IMG/VR virus record: IMGVR_UViG_3300033149_003672
Coordinates: 1-29,381 of that record
Strand: one strand, 5' to 3'
Length of the DNA stretch: 29,381 nt
Origin: a virus
Position 1 is the stretch's first letter; each line of letters starts with the position of its first letter. The notes under the pieces are model-generated. The model made no database searches, was not told the DNA's origin, and saw only the letters and a program-made list of their open reading frames with translations. Below, in pieces: positions 44-9,425 of the stretch. The translations under genes and the position numbers were made by a program.

Positions 44-358
44 ATGGAGCGGGTATTTATCTGCAGTCTGTATGCCGGAGCCACGGCCCGTAATGAAGCT
101 GTGGCCGGGCGACTGTACCGAAAGGCGATCGAGGTGGACCACGCCCCCTTCGCGCCGCACCTACTCTACCCGCGTTTCCTTGATGCTCGCCGCCGGGAGG
201 AGCGCGACCTGGGCATCGCTTGTGAACAGACCTTCATGGAAGCCTGCGACGAGGTTTGGATCTACGTAGGGAATGGAATCTCCAGCGGGATGGACCGCAA
301 AATAATACGCGCCCTCGAGCTCGGCAAGCCGATCGTCGAAATTAAAAAATCTAACTAA
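44..358 (+). CDS. DUF7768/DUF4406-like nucleoside 2-deoxyribosyltransferase-fold protein
   Basis: This 104-aa protein matches the small phage proteins related to nucleoside 2-deoxyribosyltransferases. It opens with a beta strand and an ICSLYAG segment (residues 6-12). It then has the APHLLYPRFLD block (37-47), a CDEVWIYVGNGISSGM block (68-83) and an EL-GKPI ending, all usual landmarks of the DUF7768/DUF4406 group. Members are thought to bind nucleotides or act on N-glycosidic bonds, but their substrates are mostly unknown. The start is ATG 44, supported by a G-rich Shine-Dalgarno run at about 32-37. It lies just before the ParB-like gene, and with the glycosyltransferase and phosphoribosyltransferase downstream it fits a nucleotide-modification neighbourhood. 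The fold is fairly sure; the reaction is not. Confidence 0.7.
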   Translation: MERVFICSLYAGATARNEAVAGRLYRKAIEVDHAPFAPHLLYPRFLDARRREERDLGIACEQTFMEACDEVWIYVGNGISSGMDRKIIRALELGKPIVEIKKSN

Positions 359-383: not shown

Positions 384-1121
384 ATGAGCAAGAGGAATAA
401 GAAAAAAGCAGCCAGTGTAAAGATACGGAGGACAAAGCTGAGCGAGATTACGCCGTCCGATGAGAACGAAAAGAGCCGAAGAATCACTCCCAACGCGTTC
501 GATGCTCTCAAAAAATCTATCGCTCAGTTCGGGTACGTAGAACCGATCGTTGTGAATGAAAAAACAATGAGAATAGTCGGAGGGCATCAGCGCTACAGAG
601 CTCTTCTGGAGGAAGGGATCGAGGAAGCCGATATCGTTCTCGTGAATATCGAAAATAAGGATGAAGAAAAAGCCCTAATGCTAGCCCTAAACAACCCCGG
701 GATGAAAGGGGAGTTCAGGGCGGAAGTTAGGGATCTCTTACGTGAAATAACCGACTGTGCGCCAGACATCTATGACAGTCTACGTCTTTTCGAAATCGAA
801 AAGAATCTTTCAGGTAAAAAAGATGATATTGAGGTCGAGAAAATCGATCCTGATGAAACGAAGGATAAGTATCCGGAAATGGAGCTAAGGCCGTATGAGC
901 ACTACGATTACATTATTGTACTCGCTCGGAACATACACGATTGGAATAAGCTCGCCAACGTTTTCGGAATCGAGAAAGTAAACGCACATCCGGTTCCAGG
1001 AAAGAAGCGAATTGGAATCGGACGCTGTGTAAGCGCTGAGAAGGTGCTGCAAATCATAGAGAGAAAGAAAAATGGAGATTCCACGATACCGAATCGTGAT
1101 CCCAAGCCACAGACGGCCTAA
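384..1121 (+). CDS. ParB-like (ParB/Srx fold) phage protein
   Basis: The N-terminal half carries a ParB N-terminal domain: an ITPNAFDALKKSIAQFGYVEPIVVN-type region begins about 35 residues in, followed by IVGGHQRYRAL, where GGHQR is the family's nucleotide-contacting motif. The rest is phage-type. After an acidic linker comes a separate C-terminal block with YEHYDYIIVLARNIHDW, which I have seen as a second domain in phage ParB proteins but cannot name. ATG 384 is preferred over TTG 366 because TTG would add only six unconserved residues. The end overlaps the glycosyltransferase gene by 50 nt. Phage ParB proteins beside base-modification and terminase genes are thought to help in DNA modification or packaging rather than plasmid partition. 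That role is inferred. The stretch looks more AT-rich than the structural genes. Confidence 0.8.
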   Translation: MSKRNKKKAASVKIRRTKLSEITPSDENEKSRRITPNAFDALKKSIAQFGYVEPIVVNEKTMRIVGGHQRYRALLEEGIEEADIVLVNIENKDEEKALMLALNNPGMKGEFRAEVRDLLREITDCAPDIYDSLRLFEIEKNLSGKKDDIEVEKIDPDETKDKYPEMELRPYEHYDYIIVLARNIHDWNKLANVFGIEKVNAHPVPGKKRIGIGRCVSAEKVLQIIERKKNGDSTIPNRDPKPQTA

Positions 1122-1827
1122 AAGTGCAAAAAGGATGTTATCTCTTTTCCCGACGGCGTTTTTTTCTGTCGGGGAGGATGAAGTCCAGGAATATGTAAAA
1201 GCCGGTGTGCCTCAAAGTAAGATTATTTCGCGCCCCCACGAAACAAATGGAAATCTATCCAGGGTTCGAAACTGGATAAATCTCCATGTGAAGGAGGAAA
1301 TAGTCGTCCAGCTTGATGACGATATTACATCGGTCTATTCGATGGTCGGTCGCACTCCTAGGAAAATAGATGATCCAGCAGCGATCTTAAGGGTAATCGA
1401 AAATACGATGATCTGCGCAAGGGACGCGGGCACTGCCGTTTTCGCTTGGGGAAACTCAATGGAACCGTTCAACCATGTTCCTCACGACCCAATCCGGCTC
1501 TATTCGCCTCCTAGCGGCGCGATTGGCTTTATAGGGAAGAAAATCCGCCTAGATGAAAACATCATCACAAAGGGAGACTGTCTTGATCTCTTGTGCCAGG
1601 TCTTACTTGAGTGGCGAATTATCTTTGTCGACTCTAGATTCGTGTTCAACCATGGTCGGGTAGGTAAAAACACTGGCGGTCTTCAGCTCTACCGAACCGC
1701 GGAAAGCGAAAAATACGCGCTTGAATACCTAAAAAAGAAGTGGGGATTCTGGATCTGTAATGAAATTAAAAAAAGAGGAAAGACCACGAAGATGTATGTG
1801 AGAGTCCCGCGACGGATCAAGATGTGA
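1072..1827 (+). CDS. GT-A-fold glycosyltransferase, TET-associated glycosyltransferase (TAGT)-like
   Basis: This 251-aa protein has the GT-A layout. It starts with a first strand and PSHRRP (residues 11-16), continues with ISRPHE and a SRVRNW segment, and has a metal-binding-type DDD at 82-84 following a VVQL strand. Near the C-terminus, NHGRVGKNTGGLQLYRT resembles the GG-x-YRT block of phage TAGT proteins. That family is known from comparative genomics to glycosylate modified bases in phage DNA, often beside TET/JBP oxygenases and ParB. No TET gene lies in this window, so the acceptor base is unknown; it could be made by a gene upstream of the window. ATG 1072 lies inside the 3' end of the ParB gene, so the two are probably translationally coupled. 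A glycosyltransferase acting on a protein or glycan remains possible. Confidence 0.68.
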   Translation: MEIPRYRIVIPSHRRPKSAKRMLSLFPTAFFSVGEDEVQEYVKAGVPQSKIISRPHETNGNLSRVRNWINLHVKEEIVVQLDDDITSVYSMVGRTPRKIDDPAAILRVIENTMICARDAGTAVFAWGNSMEPFNHVPHDPIRLYSPPSGAIGFIGKKIRLDENIITKGDCLDLLCQVLLEWRIIFVDSRFVFNHGRVGKNTGGLQLYRTAESEKYALEYLKKKWGFWICNEIKKRGKTTKMYVRVPRRIKM

Positions 1828-1828
1828 T

Positions 1829-2305
1829 ATGAGAGGTCCTCCACCGAAACCAACGAAGCTTCGCGTTCTGCAGGGAAACCCTGGAAGAAAACCGATCCGG
1901 AAGCGCGAGCCGGAACCCAGGGTCGGAACCCCGCAGTGCCCGGCCTGGCTGAAGGGCGAAGCCAGAAAGTGCTGGCAACGGAACGCCCCGAAACTAATCG
2001 AACTGGGACTGCTGACCGAGCTGGACGAGGACGAGTTCACTCGGTACTGCATTTCCCATGCGCAGAGGGTTGCAGCGGTCAAGTGGCTGGAGGAGCACGG
2101 AACTGTCTATCCGATCCGCGACGAAAAAACGGGACGAATCCGGTATCTCCAGCAAGTTCCGCAGGTTTCGATCGCGCGAAATGCCGCAAAACTGGCCTCC
2201 GTCCTCGGTGCTAAGTTCGGTCTCTCACCTGCCGACCGGACACGGATCCAGGTCCCAGAAAAAACAGTGTCGGACGACGACCTCGAGCACCTGCTCGGGT
2301 CTTAA
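1829..2305 (+). CDS. terS: Terminase small subunit, P27 (Terminase_4) family
   Basis: The 158-aa product begins GPPPKPTKLRVLQGNPGRKP, the highly typical opening of P27-family small terminases. PEPRVGTPQCPAWL and a helical core (ARKCWQRNAPKLIELGLLTELDEDEF) follow, and the C-terminal part has LGAKFGLSPADRTRI, another family landmark. TerS binds the packaging start site on phage DNA and loads the TerL motor. The start, ATG 1829, lies one base after the glycosyltransferase stop codon. TerS and TerL genes usually adjoin, but here TerL starts at 7866, so seven genes and about 5.5 kb separate the pair. Confidence 0.93.
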   Translation: MRGPPPKPTKLRVLQGNPGRKPIRKREPEPRVGTPQCPAWLKGEARKCWQRNAPKLIELGLLTELDEDEFTRYCISHAQRVAAVKWLEEHGTVYPIRDEKTGRIRYLQQVPQVSIARNAAKLASVLGAKFGLSPADRTRIQVPEKTVSDDDLEHLLGS

Positions 2306-2327: not shown

Positions 2328-3575
2328 ATGGAAAGGACACTTCGCTGTATCGGTGCCATCTATCGAGATGCAAAACTGCGCTCAGGCTCGTCGAGAAAAT
2401 CTGATCTGTTGGAATCGAGAATAGCTCAGGCCTGTGGGCAGCGGGATCTGGTGCGATTCGTCGAGATGCTTGCGGAACTGCTTCAAGCCACATTGGACAA
2501 CGAACACCTGCCTGGGGTGTTCCAAGAGGCAAACCGGGACGGCGAATCGATCCTGCGATGGATCCGAGAACATGTAAAAGCTACAGCTGCGCTGGCTATC
2601 CTGAGCGTATATGAAAAGGATCAGTTCGCTGCAGCCGTAAAAGATCTTACGAGCGAAGGTATACGTACGGAGAAGGCTGGGGATAAAACTGTCGAATCGC
2701 CTGCCCATGATATTGATGTGATGGTCGAGGTTCTGACACCGCTATCCCATGGTGCAGACAACAAGATGGGAAATTTCACTCTTTTCCGGCGTCAGGAAAT
2801 GATCGCCCGAAATGGTGGAGTTATTCGTCTCCCGTTCTATTCCGGGAATGCGTTGCGAGGACAGATTCGGGATCTATTGGCCGACCATCTCACGCTCTCG
2901 CTAGGGCTTTCGACGGACAAAGATCGCATGGCATACCGGCCATGGTTCTTCCATACCTTGTACGCTGGTGGGGAATTGGCGGAAACAGGGAAAGGTAAGG
3001 CGGCGGTCCCCAGGGCCGCGCTCAAGGTGATCGGTGAACGGCCCAACCTGACAGTTGATCTAGCAGATCACAAGCGATTCAGGACGATGATCCCGATGCT
3101 ATCGCTTCTCGGATGTGCGATCGGGAATCAGATCTTCGCTGGCCGGGTCAGGATCGGAGATCTGTTGCCTGAATGTGCAGAGACGGGAGCTGGGGACACC
3201 CCTGCGCACGAGCTCCTTACGTGGGAGTATCTTACGCGTCGGGACGACAGGGAAAATCTAGGCGAAGAAGACCAACACCACGGGATGGTCGCGACATGGG
3301 AGGTCATTAAGGCTGGCACTCACATGCGTGGGGGAATCGATCTCGAACCAAATATTCAGGAAATCGAAAAGTCCTGCCTTGCGCTTGGCCTGCAGCTGCT
3401 CCAGGACCACGGTGTGCTCGGCGCCTGCGCCCGGCGTGGATGGGGGCAGGTACGAATCGAATATTCTGGTGATCTTCCCTCTACAAAAACATATGTTTCT
3501 TTCCTTGAGAAGAGTAAGAAAGAAATTCTGAGCTACCTACAGGAGATGGAGGCAATCGAGAATGCTGGCGATTGA
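2328..3575 (+). CDS. Csf2/Cas7-like RAMP protein of a type IV CRISPR-like module
   Basis: This 415-aa protein carries the hallmarks of a Cas7-group RAMP subunit from about residue 128. It has a first strand leading to LTPLSHGADNK (136-146), then IRLPFYSGNALRGQIRD (166-182), the Cas7/RAMP P-x-x-x-G-x-x-LRG signature. WEVIKAGTHMRGGIDLE follows (324-340), and near the C-terminus GACARRGWGQVRIEY (365-379), a glycine-rich loop. The order and spacing best match Csf2, which forms the backbone that coats RNA in type IV effector complexes. The first 125 residues are an extra, apparently all-helical region, making it longer than the roughly 320-350 aa usual for Csf2. It overlaps the Csf1-like gene by 14 nt. 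I see no Cas6, array or adaptation gene. The RAMP call is strong; the type IV label rests on the neighbours too. Confidence 0.8.
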   Translation: MERTLRCIGAIYRDAKLRSGSSRKSDLLESRIAQACGQRDLVRFVEMLAELLQATLDNEHLPGVFQEANRDGESILRWIREHVKATAALAILSVYEKDQFAAAVKDLTSEGIRTEKAGDKTVESPAHDIDVMVEVLTPLSHGADNKMGNFTLFRRQEMIARNGGVIRLPFYSGNALRGQIRDLLADHLTLSLGLSTDKDRMAYRPWFFHTLYAGGELAETGKGKAAVPRAALKVIGERPNLTVDLADHKRFRTMIPMLSLLGCAIGNQIFAGRVRIGDLLPECAETGAGDTPAHELLTWEYLTRRDDRENLGEEDQHHGMVATWEVIKAGTHMRGGIDLEPNIQEIEKSCLALGLQLLQDHGVLGACARRGWGQVRIEYSGDLPSTKTYVSFLEKSKKEILSYLQEMEAIENAGD

Positions 3576-4224
3576 ATGGCTGGTTAACCAGCTAGATTCC
3601 TCTTCGTTCGAGAGATCCCATAAACCGGAAATCTGTGCCGTCACGGGGAAGCTGACTTGGTATCCTAAGCGTCGTGGAGGATACGTGTGGGAAGGGATGG
3701 CCGCGCCGCAGTCAGAGTGGATTGACGCGCGGTTGGCGACTGTGCTCGAGAATGGATATCTACGCTGGCAATCCTGGATTGTCGATCGCCATGGCCTTCG
3801 GGATAAACTAAAGCGCGCGGATATTCGTGATCTAGTTCTCAACCAGAGTGCAGAGCCGCCATGGGGAGCTTACGCGGCAGAAGATATGCGTCGCCATGGA
3901 GGTCTTCTCACGATTCTGAATCCAGCCTGGGATGAGAACGCAGTTATCCAGTTCGGAGCGTCGAGAACGTCAGTGGCTAGAACCCGCGAATGCTACGAGG
4001 CGATTTATCCGCTATACGCCGCCGGGTTCAGCAGAAAGGATCTGACCGAGCCGGATAGGTGTGGCGGAAAACGTATCCAGCAGTATGGGATCCTGAAGTG
4101 GATCGCTTTTCTGGATCGTTGGCGAGAGCGCTTCGGTTCGCCAGAATGGCGACTCGCGGTGTGGCTTCTGCCACCGCGGAAACAGGAGAAAAGTGAGGAG
4201 GAAAGCCATGGGGGGAGTGTATAA
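3562..4224 (+). CDS. Csf1-like (type IV large-subunit-like) protein, divergent
   Basis: This 220-aa protein sits between the Cas7-like and Cas5-like genes, where a Csf1-type subunit is expected. Seen directly: a CAVTG motif (25-29) followed by a basic/aromatic strand, PPWGAYAAEDMRRHGG (99-114), and several conserved-looking aromatic segments near the C-terminus. Csf1 proteins usually start with a Cys-containing motif, have a P-W/F segment followed by K/R-H in mid-protein, and are about 200-280 aa, which fits. The typical Csf1 zinc finger (two CxxC pairs) is not there: the only cysteines are C25, C144 and C167. ATG 3562 is preceded by GGAGG at 3548-3552 and overlaps the Csf2-like stop. In type IV complexes Csf1 occupies the position of Cas8. 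Without the neighbours I would not have named this protein. Confidence 0.55.
   Translation: MLAIEWLVNQLDSSSFERSHKPEICAVTGKLTWYPKRRGGYVWEGMAAPQSEWIDARLATVLENGYLRWQSWIVDRHGLRDKLKRADIRDLVLNQSAEPPWGAYAAEDMRRHGGLLTILNPAWDENAVIQFGASRTSVARTRECYEAIYPLYAAGFSRKDLTEPDRCGGKRIQQYGILKWIAFLDRWRERFGSPEWRLAVWLLPPRKQEKSEEESHGGSV
4196..4201 (+). promoter_or_regulatory. Shine-Dalgarno that sets the Csf3-like start
   Basis: AGGAGG lies 6 nt upstream of ATG 4208. This favours ATG 4208 over the in-frame GTG at 4193, which would place the Shine-Dalgarno inside the coding region. The site sits within the last codons of the Csf1-like gene, so the two genes are translationally coupled. Confidence 0.8.
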
Positions 4225-4867
4225 GATCACGTTCGAGCTGGACGGGCGGGGGGTCATTTATGACCCCCATGAACCGATCCATCTAGATGGAATTATAGCA
4301 TGGGCCGGTGCCTTCCGTTACCCGCCCGGCCCGCCGCCGGGCCGAACGGGGCCGGTTGAGGAACTGAATTTGCCACTCCGACAGGTGGAAATAAATGGCA
4401 CGCGAATTTACAAGGCATCGGCATTGTCCCCGGAGGGTGATGCTATCTATATTGGGCGGCATTTTCGAAAGCGCTTTCGGATCGAGCGCGCCGAGTTCTG
4501 TACCGATGCGATTATCAACCAATCGACTGGCCTTTACCGCCGAGTGAACAGGCGACTCGAAGTCGTACTGTGTCGGAAAATGGTCGGATGGTTCGATGGC
4601 ACGCCGAAGGACATCCGAAAATGGCTCAAGGCGCTGAGGGCGATCGGGCGAAAACGCGAGATGGGATATGGTCGAATCGTTTCGTTCAAAATAGAGCCGT
4701 CGGAAGAAGATCGGACCTGGCAGTGGGAAGGGATGGCGACACGGTATGTGCCACATCCTGCCGGTCTGAAACTCGTTCGCCCGCGCCCTCCCTACTGGAA
4801 CGCCACCGGGCGCGTCAAGTGCCTCGTTCCTGGGGAGAAGATTCCTGATGAAAATCCGCATGATTGA
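4208..4867 (+). CDS. Csf3/Cas5-like RAMP protein of a type IV CRISPR-like module
   Basis: This 219-aa protein starts with a RAMP-type strand, YKITFELDGRGV, followed by PIHLDGIIAWA (23-33). The P-x-x-LDG-x-(L/I)-A motif is characteristic of Csf3, the Cas5-like subunit that caps the 5' handle of the guide RNA in type IV complexes. A mid-protein segment has IYKASAL, and GRKREMGYGRIVSF (147-160) is the glycine-rich RNA-binding loop near the C-terminus. The two motifs together, at this spacing and in this gene neighbourhood, make this the best-supported type IV-specific call in the module. The 5' end overlaps the Csf1-like gene by 17 nt and the 3' end overlaps the radical SAM gene by 20 nt. Confidence 0.8.
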   Translation: MGGVYKITFELDGRGVIYDPHEPIHLDGIIAWAGAFRYPPGPPPGRTGPVEELNLPLRQVEINGTRIYKASALSPEGDAIYIGRHFRKRFRIERAEFCTDAIINQSTGLYRRVNRRLEVVLCRKMVGWFDGTPKDIRKWLKALRAIGRKREMGYGRIVSFKIEPSEEDRTWQWEGMATRYVPHPAGLKLVRPRPPYWNATGRVKCLVPGEKIPDENPHD

Positions 4868-6113
4868 AGCTACACATCTGCGGAACAGGGGATCGATTGG
4901 CTGCCACTACGTCGTCGAGGCAGCCCGGCGAGCGGGATTCTCCGTGGATTGGGAGCTAAGGCAGGAATACCATCACCATGAATACGATGTAGAGCTGATT
5001 TCTCTTCATCACTGTTTGGATTTCTTGCAGTTGCGCGACCTCCCGCGCCGCGGGAAAATCCGTCTCGTCGGTGGGCATGTAATGGCTAACAACCCGAGGC
5101 CGGCGATTCCGTTTGCAGATGTGATCTGTATCGGCGAAGGCGAGGAGTGGATCGTAATGGCGCTCAAAAGAATTCGAGAAGGAGCGAAAGCGAGGGACCT
5201 TGTGTCGCTTCCGGGGACGATCGTTCCATCAGCGTGGGATGGTGGGATTCCGTCTCCGAATGCAGTTACTCCTCTTCCTCGGCACAGACCTTACCTGAAT
5301 CGATGCGGGGAGGGTCACGCGCGCGTGTGGTATATCGAGATGGCTCGTGGCTGTCCGTTTGCCTGCCGGTTCTGCGAACTCGGGTGGAGCGTGAAATACA
5401 GGAAGCAGGAGAGGAAATGGCTATTCACCTGCCTCGACCTGATCGATACCTCTCGATCGAAGCGGGTCAGCTTTTTTGCGCCAGACGAAGCGTCTCATCC
5501 TGACTATCCAGATCTACTCGAAGAAATCCATCGTCGGGGGCTAATTACTTCGTTCGGATCTATGCGCTTGGATCGAGTGATGAAATCCAACCTTCCGTTC
5601 AGGAAAAATATGCTGATTCGTGTCGGCTTGGATGGCCTGACGGAAGCAACGCGAAAGCGGGTAGGAAAACCTCTCTCTGATGTGACCGTAGTCGAATACT
5701 TCAGGATGATGAGCACACGAGGGCACTCTAATTTCAAGGTTTTCGTAATCTTCGGTTATCCGTGGGAGGAACTGGAGGACTTCGACGAGTGGGAGCGGTT
5801 ATGGGGCCACATTACATCCATCCCACGGAAGCAATCCGCCCACGTCCGTGTGAAGTTTACGCCGTTTATTCCGCAGCCCTCTACGCCTCTCGGCCGAGAA
5901 ACGGCGAAGTACGACGAAAGAATGGTCGCTCGGATTCGGCGATGGCTTGATCGAGTTCGTGAACCGCACCGATATCCAGGGTGGTATATTGAGAGCGATG
6001 GCGTGATGTCAAAGCAAGCACACGAAATCCAATGTCGTCTCACACAAGGAGACGAAAATATCGTGTTCGATCTCGAGAAAGAGGGAATAAGATGCTCAAG
6101 TCTGTCGCGCTAA
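4848..6113 (+). CDS. B12-binding-domain-type radical SAM enzyme
   Basis: This 421-aa protein contains GCPFACRFCELGW, so C169, C173 and C176 form the CxxxCxxC motif that binds the radical SAM [4Fe-4S] cluster. The N-terminal ~150 residues look like the Rossmann domain of B12-dependent radical SAM proteins: LVGGH (73-77) and DVICIGEGEE (91-100) are landmarks of that class. The DxHxxG motif for base-off cobalamin is absent, so cobalamin binding is uncertain. Downstream blocks such as FGSMRLDR and IRVGLDGLTEATRKRVGK fit the TIM-barrel core. Such enzymes methylate, methylthiolate or rearrange unreactive carbons, including on nucleotides and RNA. ATG 4848 has GGGGAG at 4832-4837. It is coupled to the Csf3-like gene upstream and to the phosphoribosyltransferase downstream (22-nt overlap). 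The substrate is unknown; a nucleobase or guide RNA is my inference. Confidence 0.85.
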   Translation: MKIRMIEATHLRNRGSIGCHYVVEAARRAGFSVDWELRQEYHHHEYDVELISLHHCLDFLQLRDLPRRGKIRLVGGHVMANNPRPAIPFADVICIGEGEEWIVMALKRIREGAKARDLVSLPGTIVPSAWDGGIPSPNAVTPLPRHRPYLNRCGEGHARVWYIEMARGCPFACRFCELGWSVKYRKQERKWLFTCLDLIDTSRSKRVSFFAPDEASHPDYPDLLEEIHRRGLITSFGSMRLDRVMKSNLPFRKNMLIRVGLDGLTEATRKRVGKPLSDVTVVEYFRMMSTRGHSNFKVFVIFGYPWEELEDFDEWERLWGHITSIPRKQSAHVRVKFTPFIPQPSTPLGRETAKYDERMVARIRRWLDRVREPHRYPGWYIESDGVMSKQAHEIQCRLTQGDENIVFDLEKEGIRCSSLSR

Positions 6114-6703
6114 AAAGAGGTAGACTCTCGGAAGAAGAACGGCAGATTCTCCTGGGGGAGATAAGGACCTCACTGAGAGGCGCAATCCGGACGGCTTCTC
6201 CGGGCCACGCGTTTCGCCTGGCGCCCGATCTGCTCAGTAGTCAGCAGGTCGATATGAAGAAAGTTATCCACTCGCCGATTCCGCTGCTGTGCATCTCCCG
6301 GGTCGTATTCGAGATGCTCCGCGACGAGCCTGTCGAGGCGATCGGAGGGCCAGAGATAGGTGCGGTTCCGATTGCCGCAGGCGTGTCAATGCTCGCTGCG
6401 ATTCTTGGAGCTAGTCTGCCAGCGTTCATCGTTCGCAAGACGGCGAAGGGACACGGCCTTCGAAAAGACGTGGAGGGAACAGATATTAAGAGTAAGCGAG
6501 TGGCGCTCGTAGAAGATGTGATCGTGACGGGACGCACAATTTCTGAAGCGGTCCGGGTAGTGCAGCAAAAGAAAGCGAGAGTGATATCCGTAATCGTCCT
6601 ACTAGATTGGGAGCTGAGCGAATCCAGCGCGATAAGGAGAACAGAAATCCCGTGCTGGCCTCTCTTCAGAACGCGGGACCTACTTAGCGGTAAAGCGTCC
6701 TAG
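6092..6703 (+). CDS. Orotate phosphoribosyltransferase-like type I PRTase
   Basis: This 203-aa protein has VALVEDVIVTGRT (137-149), the PRPP-binding motif of type I phosphoribosyltransferases, in the form most like PyrE. IGGPEIGAVPIAAGVSM (84-100) and VRKTAKGHGLRKDVEG (114-129) match the phosphate- and substrate-side loops of orotate PRTases. The length fits as well. PyrE joins orotate to PRPP, but phage and mobile-element copies may handle modified pyrimidines or exchange bases. ATG 6092 is chosen because GAGGGAA at 6081-6087 precedes it; an upstream in-frame ATG at 6032 would add 20 basic, unconserved residues from within the radical SAM gene. The 22-nt overlap makes this the last gene of the coupled five-gene unit. 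Confidence 0.85.
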   Translation: MLKSVALKRGRLSEEERQILLGEIRTSLRGAIRTASPGHAFRLAPDLLSSQQVDMKKVIHSPIPLLCISRVVFEMLRDEPVEAIGGPEIGAVPIAAGVSMLAAILGASLPAFIVRKTAKGHGLRKDVEGTDIKSKRVALVEDVIVTGRTISEAVRVVQQKKARVISVIVLLDWELSESSAIRRTEIPCWPLFRTRDLLSGKAS

Positions 6704-6740: not shown

Positions 6741-7523
6741 ATGAGCACGACTGACTTGGATCTTGTTCTTCAGGCGCTTGCGAAGATAATGCATCTGGTC
6801 TTCCCCGTACATGATGAGCCAGATCTTGCCAGGAAGCTGGTCTACGAGGAAGGGGCCTGGAGGGAAAAGGAGTATACGAAATCTAAGGAAATCAGGCATA
6901 ACTTCCACACTCTCGATGACCTTGTCGATTACGTGAAACGGCGAGAAAAGAAAGCTATCGTAACCGTCTCGCAAGATAAAATCCTGGCCGACCTGGAGCC
7001 CTGGAAGAATTCCGTCCACCGAGCGGAAATTAGTCTGGATCACGCTATCCCGTTTGCGGAGCTGGTTTGCTTCGACAGAGGTGATCCCGTTTCGGCGGAA
7101 AGCCTCTGGATGAGTCTGGAGAGAGAGCTATATAGCTACGTTCCCTCGGCGCTCTCCCTCGCGATCGGCCAGGTCGAGGTGAGTAGCCAAGGGACCAGTC
7201 GTGTGCAGTTCGGCCTCAGTGGAAGGAACCGCAAACAGGAAAAAGCGGTCAACGTCTTCGTGATAGAAACGAAAGGCAATGGTGATGAAACGCGGCGAAC
7301 ACAGTTCCAGACGGACTGGTTTTACGAGGGGCCGATCTGGAGCTGCGATCTGAACGCGCGGTGGAAAGTCGGCTTTAGGGTAATCCCGCGGGTCCAGAAC
7401 GGAACGGTTCTGTTTTCTGTAGCTATCCAGGACCGTGAAAAGGTGATCACCGAATCGCTGGCCGCGATTAAGGAACGTCTGCAAAGCGACCTCGGGGATT
7501 TGGCGGAAGTCTATCTAGCCTGA
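6741..7523 (+). CDS. Phage protein of unknown function, weakly DUF2303-like
   Basis: I do not firmly recognise this 260-aa protein. The order of landmarks weakly recalls DUF2303 (YfdQ) phage proteins. There is an early FHTLDDLVDYV segment, then a strand-rich stretch followed by an HRAEISL block, a FAELVCF stretch, a central helix, and a C-terminal GFRVIPRVQNGTVLFSVAI strand pair before a last helix. No catalytic motif, signal peptide or membrane segment is visible. The gene starts at ATG 6741 with AGGAGG directly upstream, in a leader (TTAAAC, CCTAG, AGGAGGAAAAA) much like that of the Csf2-like gene. The 37-nt gap after the PRTase is the first break in the chain of overlaps, so it may belong to the packaging genes rather than the RAMP unit. 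Confidence 0.45.
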   Translation: MSTTDLDLVLQALAKIMHLVFPVHDEPDLARKLVYEEGAWREKEYTKSKEIRHNFHTLDDLVDYVKRREKKAIVTVSQDKILADLEPWKNSVHRAEISLDHAIPFAELVCFDRGDPVSAESLWMSLERELYSYVPSALSLAIGQVEVSSQGTSRVQFGLSGRNRKQEKAVNVFVIETKGNGDETRRTQFQTDWFYEGPIWSCDLNARWKVGFRVIPRVQNGTVLFSVAIQDREKVITESLAAIKERLQSDLGDLAEVYLA

Positions 7524-7539: not shown

Positions 7540-7869
7540 ATGTCAGCCCAGATGGATCCTGACGCCTTCGCGCAGCTTTCACGCTGCCTCAGGCAGTTCA
7601 CAGGAACAACTCAGCGGGAGTTCGCGGCTATCTGCGGCGTCCGGTGTGAGACGATTCAGAGGCTGGAGCGAGGCGAGGCAATGGGCGCGACGACTCTGGC
7701 GCGCGTGATCCTATACAGCTTCTGCTACTACGCAGATCGGGTGGCCCAGGAAGAAAACGGGACGAGAGTGCTGACGATCCACCGCCTCGCGACAGATTTC
7801 ACTCGAGCGCTGATCGGCTCTAACGGACCCGGGGCGGTAGACGGAAGGATCAGAAGACAGGTCGAATGA
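7540..7869 (+). CDS. Small helix-turn-helix (XRE/HTH_3-like) protein
   Basis: This 109-aa protein has an N-terminal helix-turn-helix of the Cro/C1 type: FTGTTQREFAAICGV forms helices 1-2 and CETIQRLERGEAMGATTL the recognition helix and turn. A helical tail follows, and the last 30 residues look disordered. It could be a DNA-binding adaptor or a local regulator; no operator is visible nearby. AAGAGG at 7526-7532 precedes ATG 7540, and the stop overlaps the TerL start by 4 nt (ATGA). Placement directly before terL hints at a packaging or late-gene role, but the terS position is already filled by the P27-family gene at 1829. Confidence 0.65.
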   Translation: MSAQMDPDAFAQLSRCLRQFTGTTQREFAAICGVRCETIQRLERGEAMGATTLARVILYSFCYYADRVAQEENGTRVLTIHRLATDFTRALIGSNGPGAVDGRIRRQVE

Positions 7870-9425
7870 TCGAATACAAGTTTGACGAACAGGAAGCGCA
7901 GCGCGCTGTTGACTTCTTTGAGAAGCTGCTTCACCACGTGAAAGGGGAGTGGGCCGGGCAGCCGTTCCTTCTCGCCTCGTGGGAGAAGGAGTTTATCCGC
8001 GAGCTGTTTGGGTGGAGGCGCGAGGATGGGACGCGTCGCTACCGGATGGCCTACTTGGAGATCCCGCGTAAGAACGGGAAATCCTCCCTCGCCGCTGGCT
8101 TGGCGCTATACCTCCTCTTCGCGGATCGAGAGCCGGGGGCGGAGATTTATTCTGCCGCCGGCGACCGCGGCCAGGCGGCGCTCGTGTTTGAGATCGCGAA
8201 AGGGATGATTGAGCGCAGCCCGGTCCTCCGGAAACGCTGTGAGGTCTTCAAGCACAGCGTGTATGTTCCGAGTTCAGGAAGCGTCTATAAAGTGCTCTCC
8301 GCCGAGGCCTATTCGAAGCACGGAATAAATGCTCACGGGATAATCTTCGACGAGCTGCACGTCCAACCGAACCGAGAACTCTGGGACGTGCTCACGACCT
8401 CGACTGGCGCGCGAAGACAGCCGATCGTCGTGGCGATCACGACCGCCGGATACGATCGGCACTCGATCTGCTGGGAAATCCACGACTACGCGCTGAAAGT
8501 TCGGGACGGAATCGTTGAGGATGACACGTTTCTGCCGATCATCTATACCGTCGGCGAGAAAGAGGACTGGACCGATCCGGAGGTCTGGGCGAAGGCGAAT
8601 CCGAATCTCGGGATCTCGCTGAAGAGGGAATACCTCGAGCAGGAGTGCCGTCGCGCGAAGGAAGTCCCGGCCTACGAAAATACGTTCCGGCGTCTCCACC
8701 TGAATCAGTGGACAGAGCAGGCCGTTCGCTGGCTGCCCATGGATCACTGGGACGAGTGCGCCGGCGGCGAGATAGACGAGGAAGCGCTCGCCGGGAAACC
8801 GTGTTACGCAGGGCTGGATCTCGCGAGCACAATTGATATCGCCGCGCTGGTTCTGCTATTTCCAGGCTCGGGAGAGGACGGGCCGCGGTACAGAGTGATC
8901 TGTCGGTTCTGGGTTCCCGAGGAGAATCTGCGTGAGCGCGCAGATCGGGACAGGGTTCCGTATGACCAGTGGGCGCGGGAAGGCTGGATCACTCCGACGG
9001 AAGGAAACGTGATCGACTACGACAGGATTCGTGCGGACATCAATGTGCTTGGGGGGCGGTTCGAGATCCGCGAGATCGCGATCGACCGGTGGAACTCAAC
9101 CCAGCTCCAGACACAGCTGGACGGAGACGGTTTCACCGTCGTACCATTCGGCCAAGGGTTCGGATCGATGAGCGCGCCGACGAAAGAACTCGAAGGGCTC
9201 GTGCTGGGAAAGAAAATTGAGCACGGTGGGAACCCAGTCCTGCGATGGATGGCGTCGAACGTTTCGGTAAGACAGGATCCGGCCGGAAACCTGAAGCCTG
9301 ACAAGAGCCGGAGCGCCGAAAAGATCGACGGAATCGTGGCGCTGGTTATGGCCCTCGGCCGAGCAATGGTCCATCGCGACGAGGACAGCAGCGTGTATGA
9401 AGATCGCGGAATTGTGCTAATATAG
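7866..9425 (+). CDS. terL: Terminase large subunit (Terminase_1-type packaging ATPase/nuclease)
   Basis: The 519-aa product is a complete TerL. Its ATPase domain has Walker A IPRKNGKSS (66-74), a QxxxF-like region just before it, and Walker B GIIFDELH (158-165) with D162 and E163; the TTAGY block (192-196) is the coupling motif. The C-terminal RNase H-fold nuclease has acidic residues at YAGLDLAS (D318), IAIDRW (D407) and KIDGIVALVMA (D488). This is the motor and headful/cos nuclease that packages DNA into proheads through the portal. It overlaps the HTH gene by 4 nt. The match and length are those of Terminase_1-type large subunits linked with P27-family small subunits. Confidence 0.95.
   Translation: MIEYKFDEQEAQRAVDFFEKLLHHVKGEWAGQPFLLASWEKEFIRELFGWRREDGTRRYRMAYLEIPRKNGKSSLAAGLALYLLFADREPGAEIYSAAGDRGQAALVFEIAKGMIERSPVLRKRCEVFKHSVYVPSSGSVYKVLSAEAYSKHGINAHGIIFDELHVQPNRELWDVLTTSTGARRQPIVVAITTAGYDRHSICWEIHDYALKVRDGIVEDDTFLPIIYTVGEKEDWTDPEVWAKANPNLGISLKREYLEQECRRAKEVPAYENTFRRLHLNQWTEQAVRWLPMDHWDECAGGEIDEEALAGKPCYAGLDLASTIDIAALVLLFPGSGEDGPRYRVICRFWVPEENLRERADRDRVPYDQWAREGWITPTEGNVIDYDRIRADINVLGGRFEIREIAIDRWNSTQLQTQLDGDGFTVVPFGQGFGSMSAPTKELEGLVLGKKIEHGGNPVLRWMASNVSVRQDPAGNLKPDKSRSAEKIDGIVALVMALGRAMVHRDEDSSVYEDRGIVLI

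Follow-up and report, generated by a model that had tools for sequence, protein, structure and literature searches.

A widespread, terminase-linked gene pair in phages encodes a ParB-domain protein and a TAGT-like glycosyltransferase and probably serves DNA modification

To our knowledge, every known DNA glycosyltransferase requires a base that has been hydroxylated beforehand. The TAGT enzymes of phages T2 and T6, beta-glucosyl-HMC-alpha-glucosyltransferases (PF20691; PHROG 842), are described systems of this kind, and in T6 glucosylation is carried out in two steps (PMC13216743). ParB-domain genes are also found beside phage enzymes that modify bases. For example, ParBc genes adjoin phage carboxymethyltransferase genes and are fused with DNA methyltransferases, with a role described as unknown, and the phage CmoX carboxymethylcytosine system, in which ParBc-domain genes likewise lie beside base-modifying enzymes, installs a carboxymethyl handle and an amide (PMC12783734). 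Another example is Rhodococcus phage Tonitrus, which has been described as encoding thymine hypermodification (PMC11955845).

Here we analyse a phage locus in which a ParB-domain gene precedes a separate glycosyltransferase (GT) gene. The pair resembles the TAGTs of T2 and T6 in the GT-A fold, the DDD site, the full-length PHROG match of the enzyme and its being phage-encoded, but differs from them in that no TET or hydroxymethylase genes were found in its carriers, in its near-obligate ParB partner and in its position close to the terminase genes. With the ParB-DNA methyltransferase fusions of PHROG 498, several of which lie just before terS-like genes, it has the ParB N-domain family in common, but the GT is encoded by its own gene and the ParB carries a short C-terminal domain (C-domain) instead of the methyltransferase. 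In Tonitrus, a ParB gene is followed by TET, aGPT-PPlase2 and kinase genes a short way ahead of the terminase gene, an arrangement that is similar in joining ParB to DNA-modifying enzymes at this position; however, Tonitrus has no TAGT and its ParB lacks the GT-type C-domain. Unlike the CmoX system with its carboxymethyl handle, ParB-GT carriers are almost devoid of C5 methyltransferase-type genes.

The DNA analysed, referred to below as the window, is the entire 29,381-bp IMG/VR record IMGVR_UViG_3300033149_003672 and, because it has no end repeats, is probably a fragment of a phage genome (Table 1). The ParB and GT genes both start with ATG and have 50 nt in common; the stop codon of the GT occupies positions 1825-1827 and terS starts at 1829, one base past it. 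A preliminary description of this DNA had reported the overlap of a GGHQR-type ParB with a GT and the start of terS one base later, with coordinates that were all correct when compared with the open reading frames and the sequence, and the DDD and GGLQLYRT motifs it had placed in the GT are present at residues 82-84 and 202-209, respectively. The 50-nt overlap is unique to the window and stems from a C-terminal tail on ParB, other loci usually showing an overlap of 1-7 nt or a gap of a few nucleotides. The terS gene is a conserved neighbour of the pair and stands outside the enzyme unit, and no counterpart of the DUF7768 gene on the other side was seen in other ParB-GT loci. Third-position G+C is 51% in ParB and GT against 69% in the preceding gene and 66-79% in terS, terL, portal and capsid genes, a difference in composition that fits recent acquisition of the pair as a cassette by the window phage.

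Table 1. Features of the window and loci sharing its radical SAM-csf arrangement
Feature	Position	Strand	Evidence or remark
DUF7768 / nucleoside 2-deoxyribosyltransferase-like gene, upstream of ParB	44..358	+	family match 8.8e-30
ParB_N-domain protein with GT-associated C-domain (~residues 168-230)	384..1121	+	Pfam ParB_N 5.6e-7; AF2
TAGT-like GT-A glycosyltransferase, probable DNA base glycosyltransferase	1072..1827	+	phrog_842 1.3e-9; Pfam TAGT 2.6e-5; AF2; BFVD
Terminase small subunit terS, P27 family	1829..2305	+	NCBIfam 4.6e-17
Likely Cas11-Csf2 fusion, type IV csf operon	2328-3575	+	Cas11 part weak
Csf1, type IV csf operon	3562-4224	+	
Csf3, type IV csf operon	4193-4867	+	
B12-type radical SAM protein, csf operon	4848-6113	+	
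pyrE-like phosphoribosyltransferase (PRTase)	6032-6703		82-nt overlap with radical SAM gene
Gene without assigned family	6741-7523		
Terminase large subunit terL	7866..9425	+	split from terS by inserted genes
Radical SAM-csf loci	window 2328-6113; L069, L098/L107, L100-L106, L108, L109		

The window GT matches PHROG 842 over its full length, whereas its match to Pfam TAGT (PF20691), at 24.7 bits, falls just below the curated cut-off of 27.5, which 9 of the 12 ParB-GT carriers tested pass. Among 27 aligned GT relatives, 26 match Pfam TAGT and none matches another Pfam family. Fifteen alignment columns are invariant across the 27 sequences, and the invariant residues include R15, Y41, G60, R66, N67, D82-D84, D161, E162, D169 and W224; the GT start at 1072 is supported because relatives start at the same residue. 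The AlphaFold (AF2) model of the protein (pLDDT 88) aligned in BFVD with phage proteins named TAGT at TM 0.68-0.77, with the beta-glucosyl-HMC-alpha-glucosyltransferase of Klebsiella phage PKO111 at TM 0.75 and with an unnamed top match at TM 0.82, and it reached at most TM 0.55 with solved GTs among the matches listed (TarP 0.49; RmlT 0.49-0.55). On this modelled structure, the window GT is an enzyme of the TAGT kind, with a predicted GT-A fold and a DDD metal site.

To find relatives, IMG/VR was scanned with the GT only, leaving ParB unused. Scans with the single window sequence of the GT, or of Csf2, gave no matches and small alignments were used instead, which for the GT yielded 58 loci; a scan of genome contigs gave one locus only, in an Acidobacteria MAG (L067). 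In 57 of the 58 IMG/VR loci the GT is immediately preceded by a ParB of the same family, the exception being a contig that begins inside the GT (L060), and in a few loci, e.g. L047 and L008, one small gene separates the two. For GT relatives found without ParB, such linkage is far beyond chance. At 80% identity, the GTs fall into 20 clusters, the window and Streptococcus prophage Javan291 counting as two of them. In the 20 loci with a placeable candidate terL, this gene lies a median of 365 bp from the GT stop, and within 1 kb in 16 of them; the candidate terL proteins, taken as a group, match mainly PHROG terminase large subunit families, of which there are several. In Javan291 the pair lies immediately before terL. 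In Microbacterium phage Gina (Quhwahvirus) it is near the right genome end and terS is the first gene of the genome; cluster EC phages are lytic and their genomes circularly permuted (PMC7302621). The coupling of a TAGT-like GT to ParB beside the terminase, proposed from the window, is thus borne out by the 57 loci, the PHROG 842 match and the fold matches, and the pair is a real unit that is widespread and tied to the terminase across many unrelated phages.

Some of these loci contain further genes. Tandem GT genes follow ParB in L006, L007, L009, L011, L015, L016, L018-L022, L042 and L055, recalling the two-step glucosylation of T6 (PMC13216743) and possibly reflecting stepwise addition of two sugars. 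In L047 (5330-5998) and L045 (1756-2424), a gene that we named by eye as an FkbM-like methyltransferase lies between ParB and GT and possibly serves O-methylation of the transferred sugar. Both arrangements are what the assembly and decoration of a sugar would lead one to expect.

The window ParB contains the motif VGGHQRYRA (GGHxR type), and a fold search with the AF2 model of its N-domain matched ParB, Noc and PadC. The further features of a chromosome or plasmid partition ParB were not found: a family match was obtained for the N-domain only, with none for a helix-turn-helix DNA-binding domain or a C-terminal dimerisation domain, and the window genes covered by the Pfam scan included none recognised as parA. 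The C-domain has conserved columns in the alignment, and its presence follows that of the GT. A scan for ParB, using a profile built from GT-linked members, gave 78 new classifiable loci. The GT is present beside 35 of the 36 ParBs that reach through the C-domain, the remaining one (L132) having an FkbM-like methyltransferase, named by eye, next to it. The 42 ParBs without the C-domain comprise 14 long fusions, 3 with a GT and 25 with other neighbours, and all 14 fusions carry a DNA methyltransferase motif (DPPY, DPPF or SPPY). The association of C-domain and GT has a Fisher p of ~2e-17, which is indicative only, the contigs being non-independent and the profile derived from GT-linked members. 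Since this ParB module otherwise occurs in fusion with DNA methyltransferases, or beside TET and other modification genes in Tonitrus, glycosylation of DNA is the best reading of the GT-linked form.

Phage hydroxymethylases belong to the thymidylate synthase family. We searched for this family (PF00303) and for TET/JBP (PF12851) in the 45 records carrying the pair, which include the full-length genomes of Gina (53.4 kb) and Javan291 (39.6 kb) and contigs of 64, 49 and 45 kb, many others being fragments. Neither was found in any carrier (0/45), and both searches detected positive controls, the TET gene of Tonitrus at 7.7e-10 and PF00303 matches in 9 of 14 control genomes. A C5 methyltransferase that might supply a handle was found in one virus record of the 45 only. 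The usual acceptor routes are therefore absent from the ParB-GT family as a whole and not from the window alone, with many of the contigs being fragments. The proposal that the phage glycosylates a modified base thus stands in part: DNA glycosylation remains the best reading, given the TAGT fold and the ParB-methyltransferase and TET context, but the hydroxylation route is not supported, and the suggestion that a TET/JBP or hydroxymethylase gene lies outside the window goes against the carrier searches. The acceptor would be either a canonical base, a modified base supplied by the host, or a handle that comes from an enzyme not recognised so far. It is possible, if rather doubtful, that the GT glycosylates a canonical, unmodified base directly, without a hydroxymethyl handle, the C-domain of ParB presenting the DNA to it; this would be comparable to Mom, which acts on plain adenine.

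We consider it likely that phage DNA is modified by ParB and GT acting as a two-component unit, in which the GT glycosylates the bases. The ParB N-domain would engage DNA (or nucleotide), its short C-domain would dock or license the separately encoded GT, and this GT-A enzyme, with its DDD metal site, would use a nucleotide sugar as donor to place a sugar on the bases. Expressed from genes immediately ahead of the terminase genes, the unit would act late in infection, and the sugar on the packaged DNA may confer resistance to host nucleases. That the GT instead acts on a base hydroxylated by a TET or dUMP/dCMP hydroxymethylase encoded elsewhere in the phage would follow the classical TAGT route of T6-like phages (PMC13216743, PMC13390438), and the window is only a fragment; nevertheless, we hold this to be improbable, since no such gene was found in the carriers, full-length Gina and Javan291 included, by a search that did detect the TET of Tonitrus.

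Other substrates have to be weighed against DNA. The GT could modify a surface glycan of the host or teichoic acid, in lysogenic conversion or superinfection exclusion, ParB being either uninvolved or a regulator, as might be suggested by the best PDB match among those listed, the wall teichoic acid GT TarP; we find this unlikely, because the TM of ~0.49 to TarP compares with 0.68-0.82 for the phage TAGT-type matches, ParB linkage is near-obligate in ~20 clusters, the pair is present in lytic phages (PMC7302621) and the terminase-side slot is shared with ParB-methyltransferases. The strict ParB linkage and the place beside terS-terL would also suit glycosylation of a phage or host protein, e.g. 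ParB, terminase or capsid, as a means of regulating packaging. DNA is instead indicated by the TAGT fold and by the swapping of the GT for DNA methyltransferases on one ParB module, and the terminases of the carriers belong to several families, so that no common protein target is evident; there is accordingly little chance that a protein is the substrate. A single hypermodification pathway comprising ParB, GT, radical SAM and PRTase, the last two having been put forward as partners in the preliminary description, is suggested by the presence of the four genes within 6.7 kb on one strand but is, in our judgement, extremely improbable. The radical SAM gene accompanies csf1, csf2 and csf3 in all 11 viral loci recovered by a scan for its family and never ParB-GT, no homologue of the PRTase occurs in any fetched locus, and third-position G+C is 51% in ParB and GT versus 56-62% in the genes from csf to PRTase. 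Neither gene thus has support as a partner.

The operon to which the radical SAM gene belongs is a module separate from the ParB-GT unit. It begins with the type IV CRISPR genes csf2, csf1 and csf3 (2328-4867), which lie between terS and terL. The window Csf2 has a 125-residue N-terminal extension that is weakly Cas11-like (0.012; 0.0012 in L069:241-1512) and, judged by this similarity, is likely a Cas11-Cas7 fusion. The window thus has the csf1, csf2, csf3 and cas11 content of type IV-B, with a weak Cas11 part, and contains no CRISPR array; no convincing array was found near csf loci. The radical SAM loci show two gene orders, csf2-csf1-rSAM-csf3 and csf1-cas11-csf2-csf3-rSAM. CysH lies within 6 kb of 0 of the 12 radical SAM loci versus 29 of 34 other csf loci (Fisher 1.6e-7, a few near-duplicate contigs being counted). 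No radical SAM of this family was found on plasmids at 1e-20, and our literature search found no description of type IV csf genes with a radical SAM gene; this is apparently an undescribed, virus-borne type IV variant with radical SAM in place of CysH. That ParB-GT travels with csf genes was considered and rejected, as the two co-occur only in the window, and the gene at 6741-7523, like the PRTase, has no relatives in any fetched locus. In another phage contig (L093:1-6580), csf2-csf3-CysH is followed by a DNA methyltransferase, terS and a terL related to that of the window (2.9e-151); together with the window, this indicates a recurrent association of type IV genes with the terminase region. 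In plasmid or viral type IV-B loci (L063, L064, L066, L072, L082 and L096), a ParB-domain gene lies beside further CysH/DUF3440-type genes, and GNAT genes are also present in L064 and L066.

From the point of view of phage DNA chemistry, a widespread, terminase-linked ParB-TAGT unit in phages without a hydroxylation pathway points either to direct base glycosylation or to an acceptor chemistry as yet unknown. If true, direct glycosylation of a canonical base would be a new phage DNA modification chemistry across many unrelated phages. Since cultured carriers exist (Quhwahvirus on Microbacterium), the hypothesis can be tested, and it offers a testable role for the ParB domain repeatedly found next to phage enzymes that modify DNA, a domain whose function in this setting has been described as unknown (PMC12783734).
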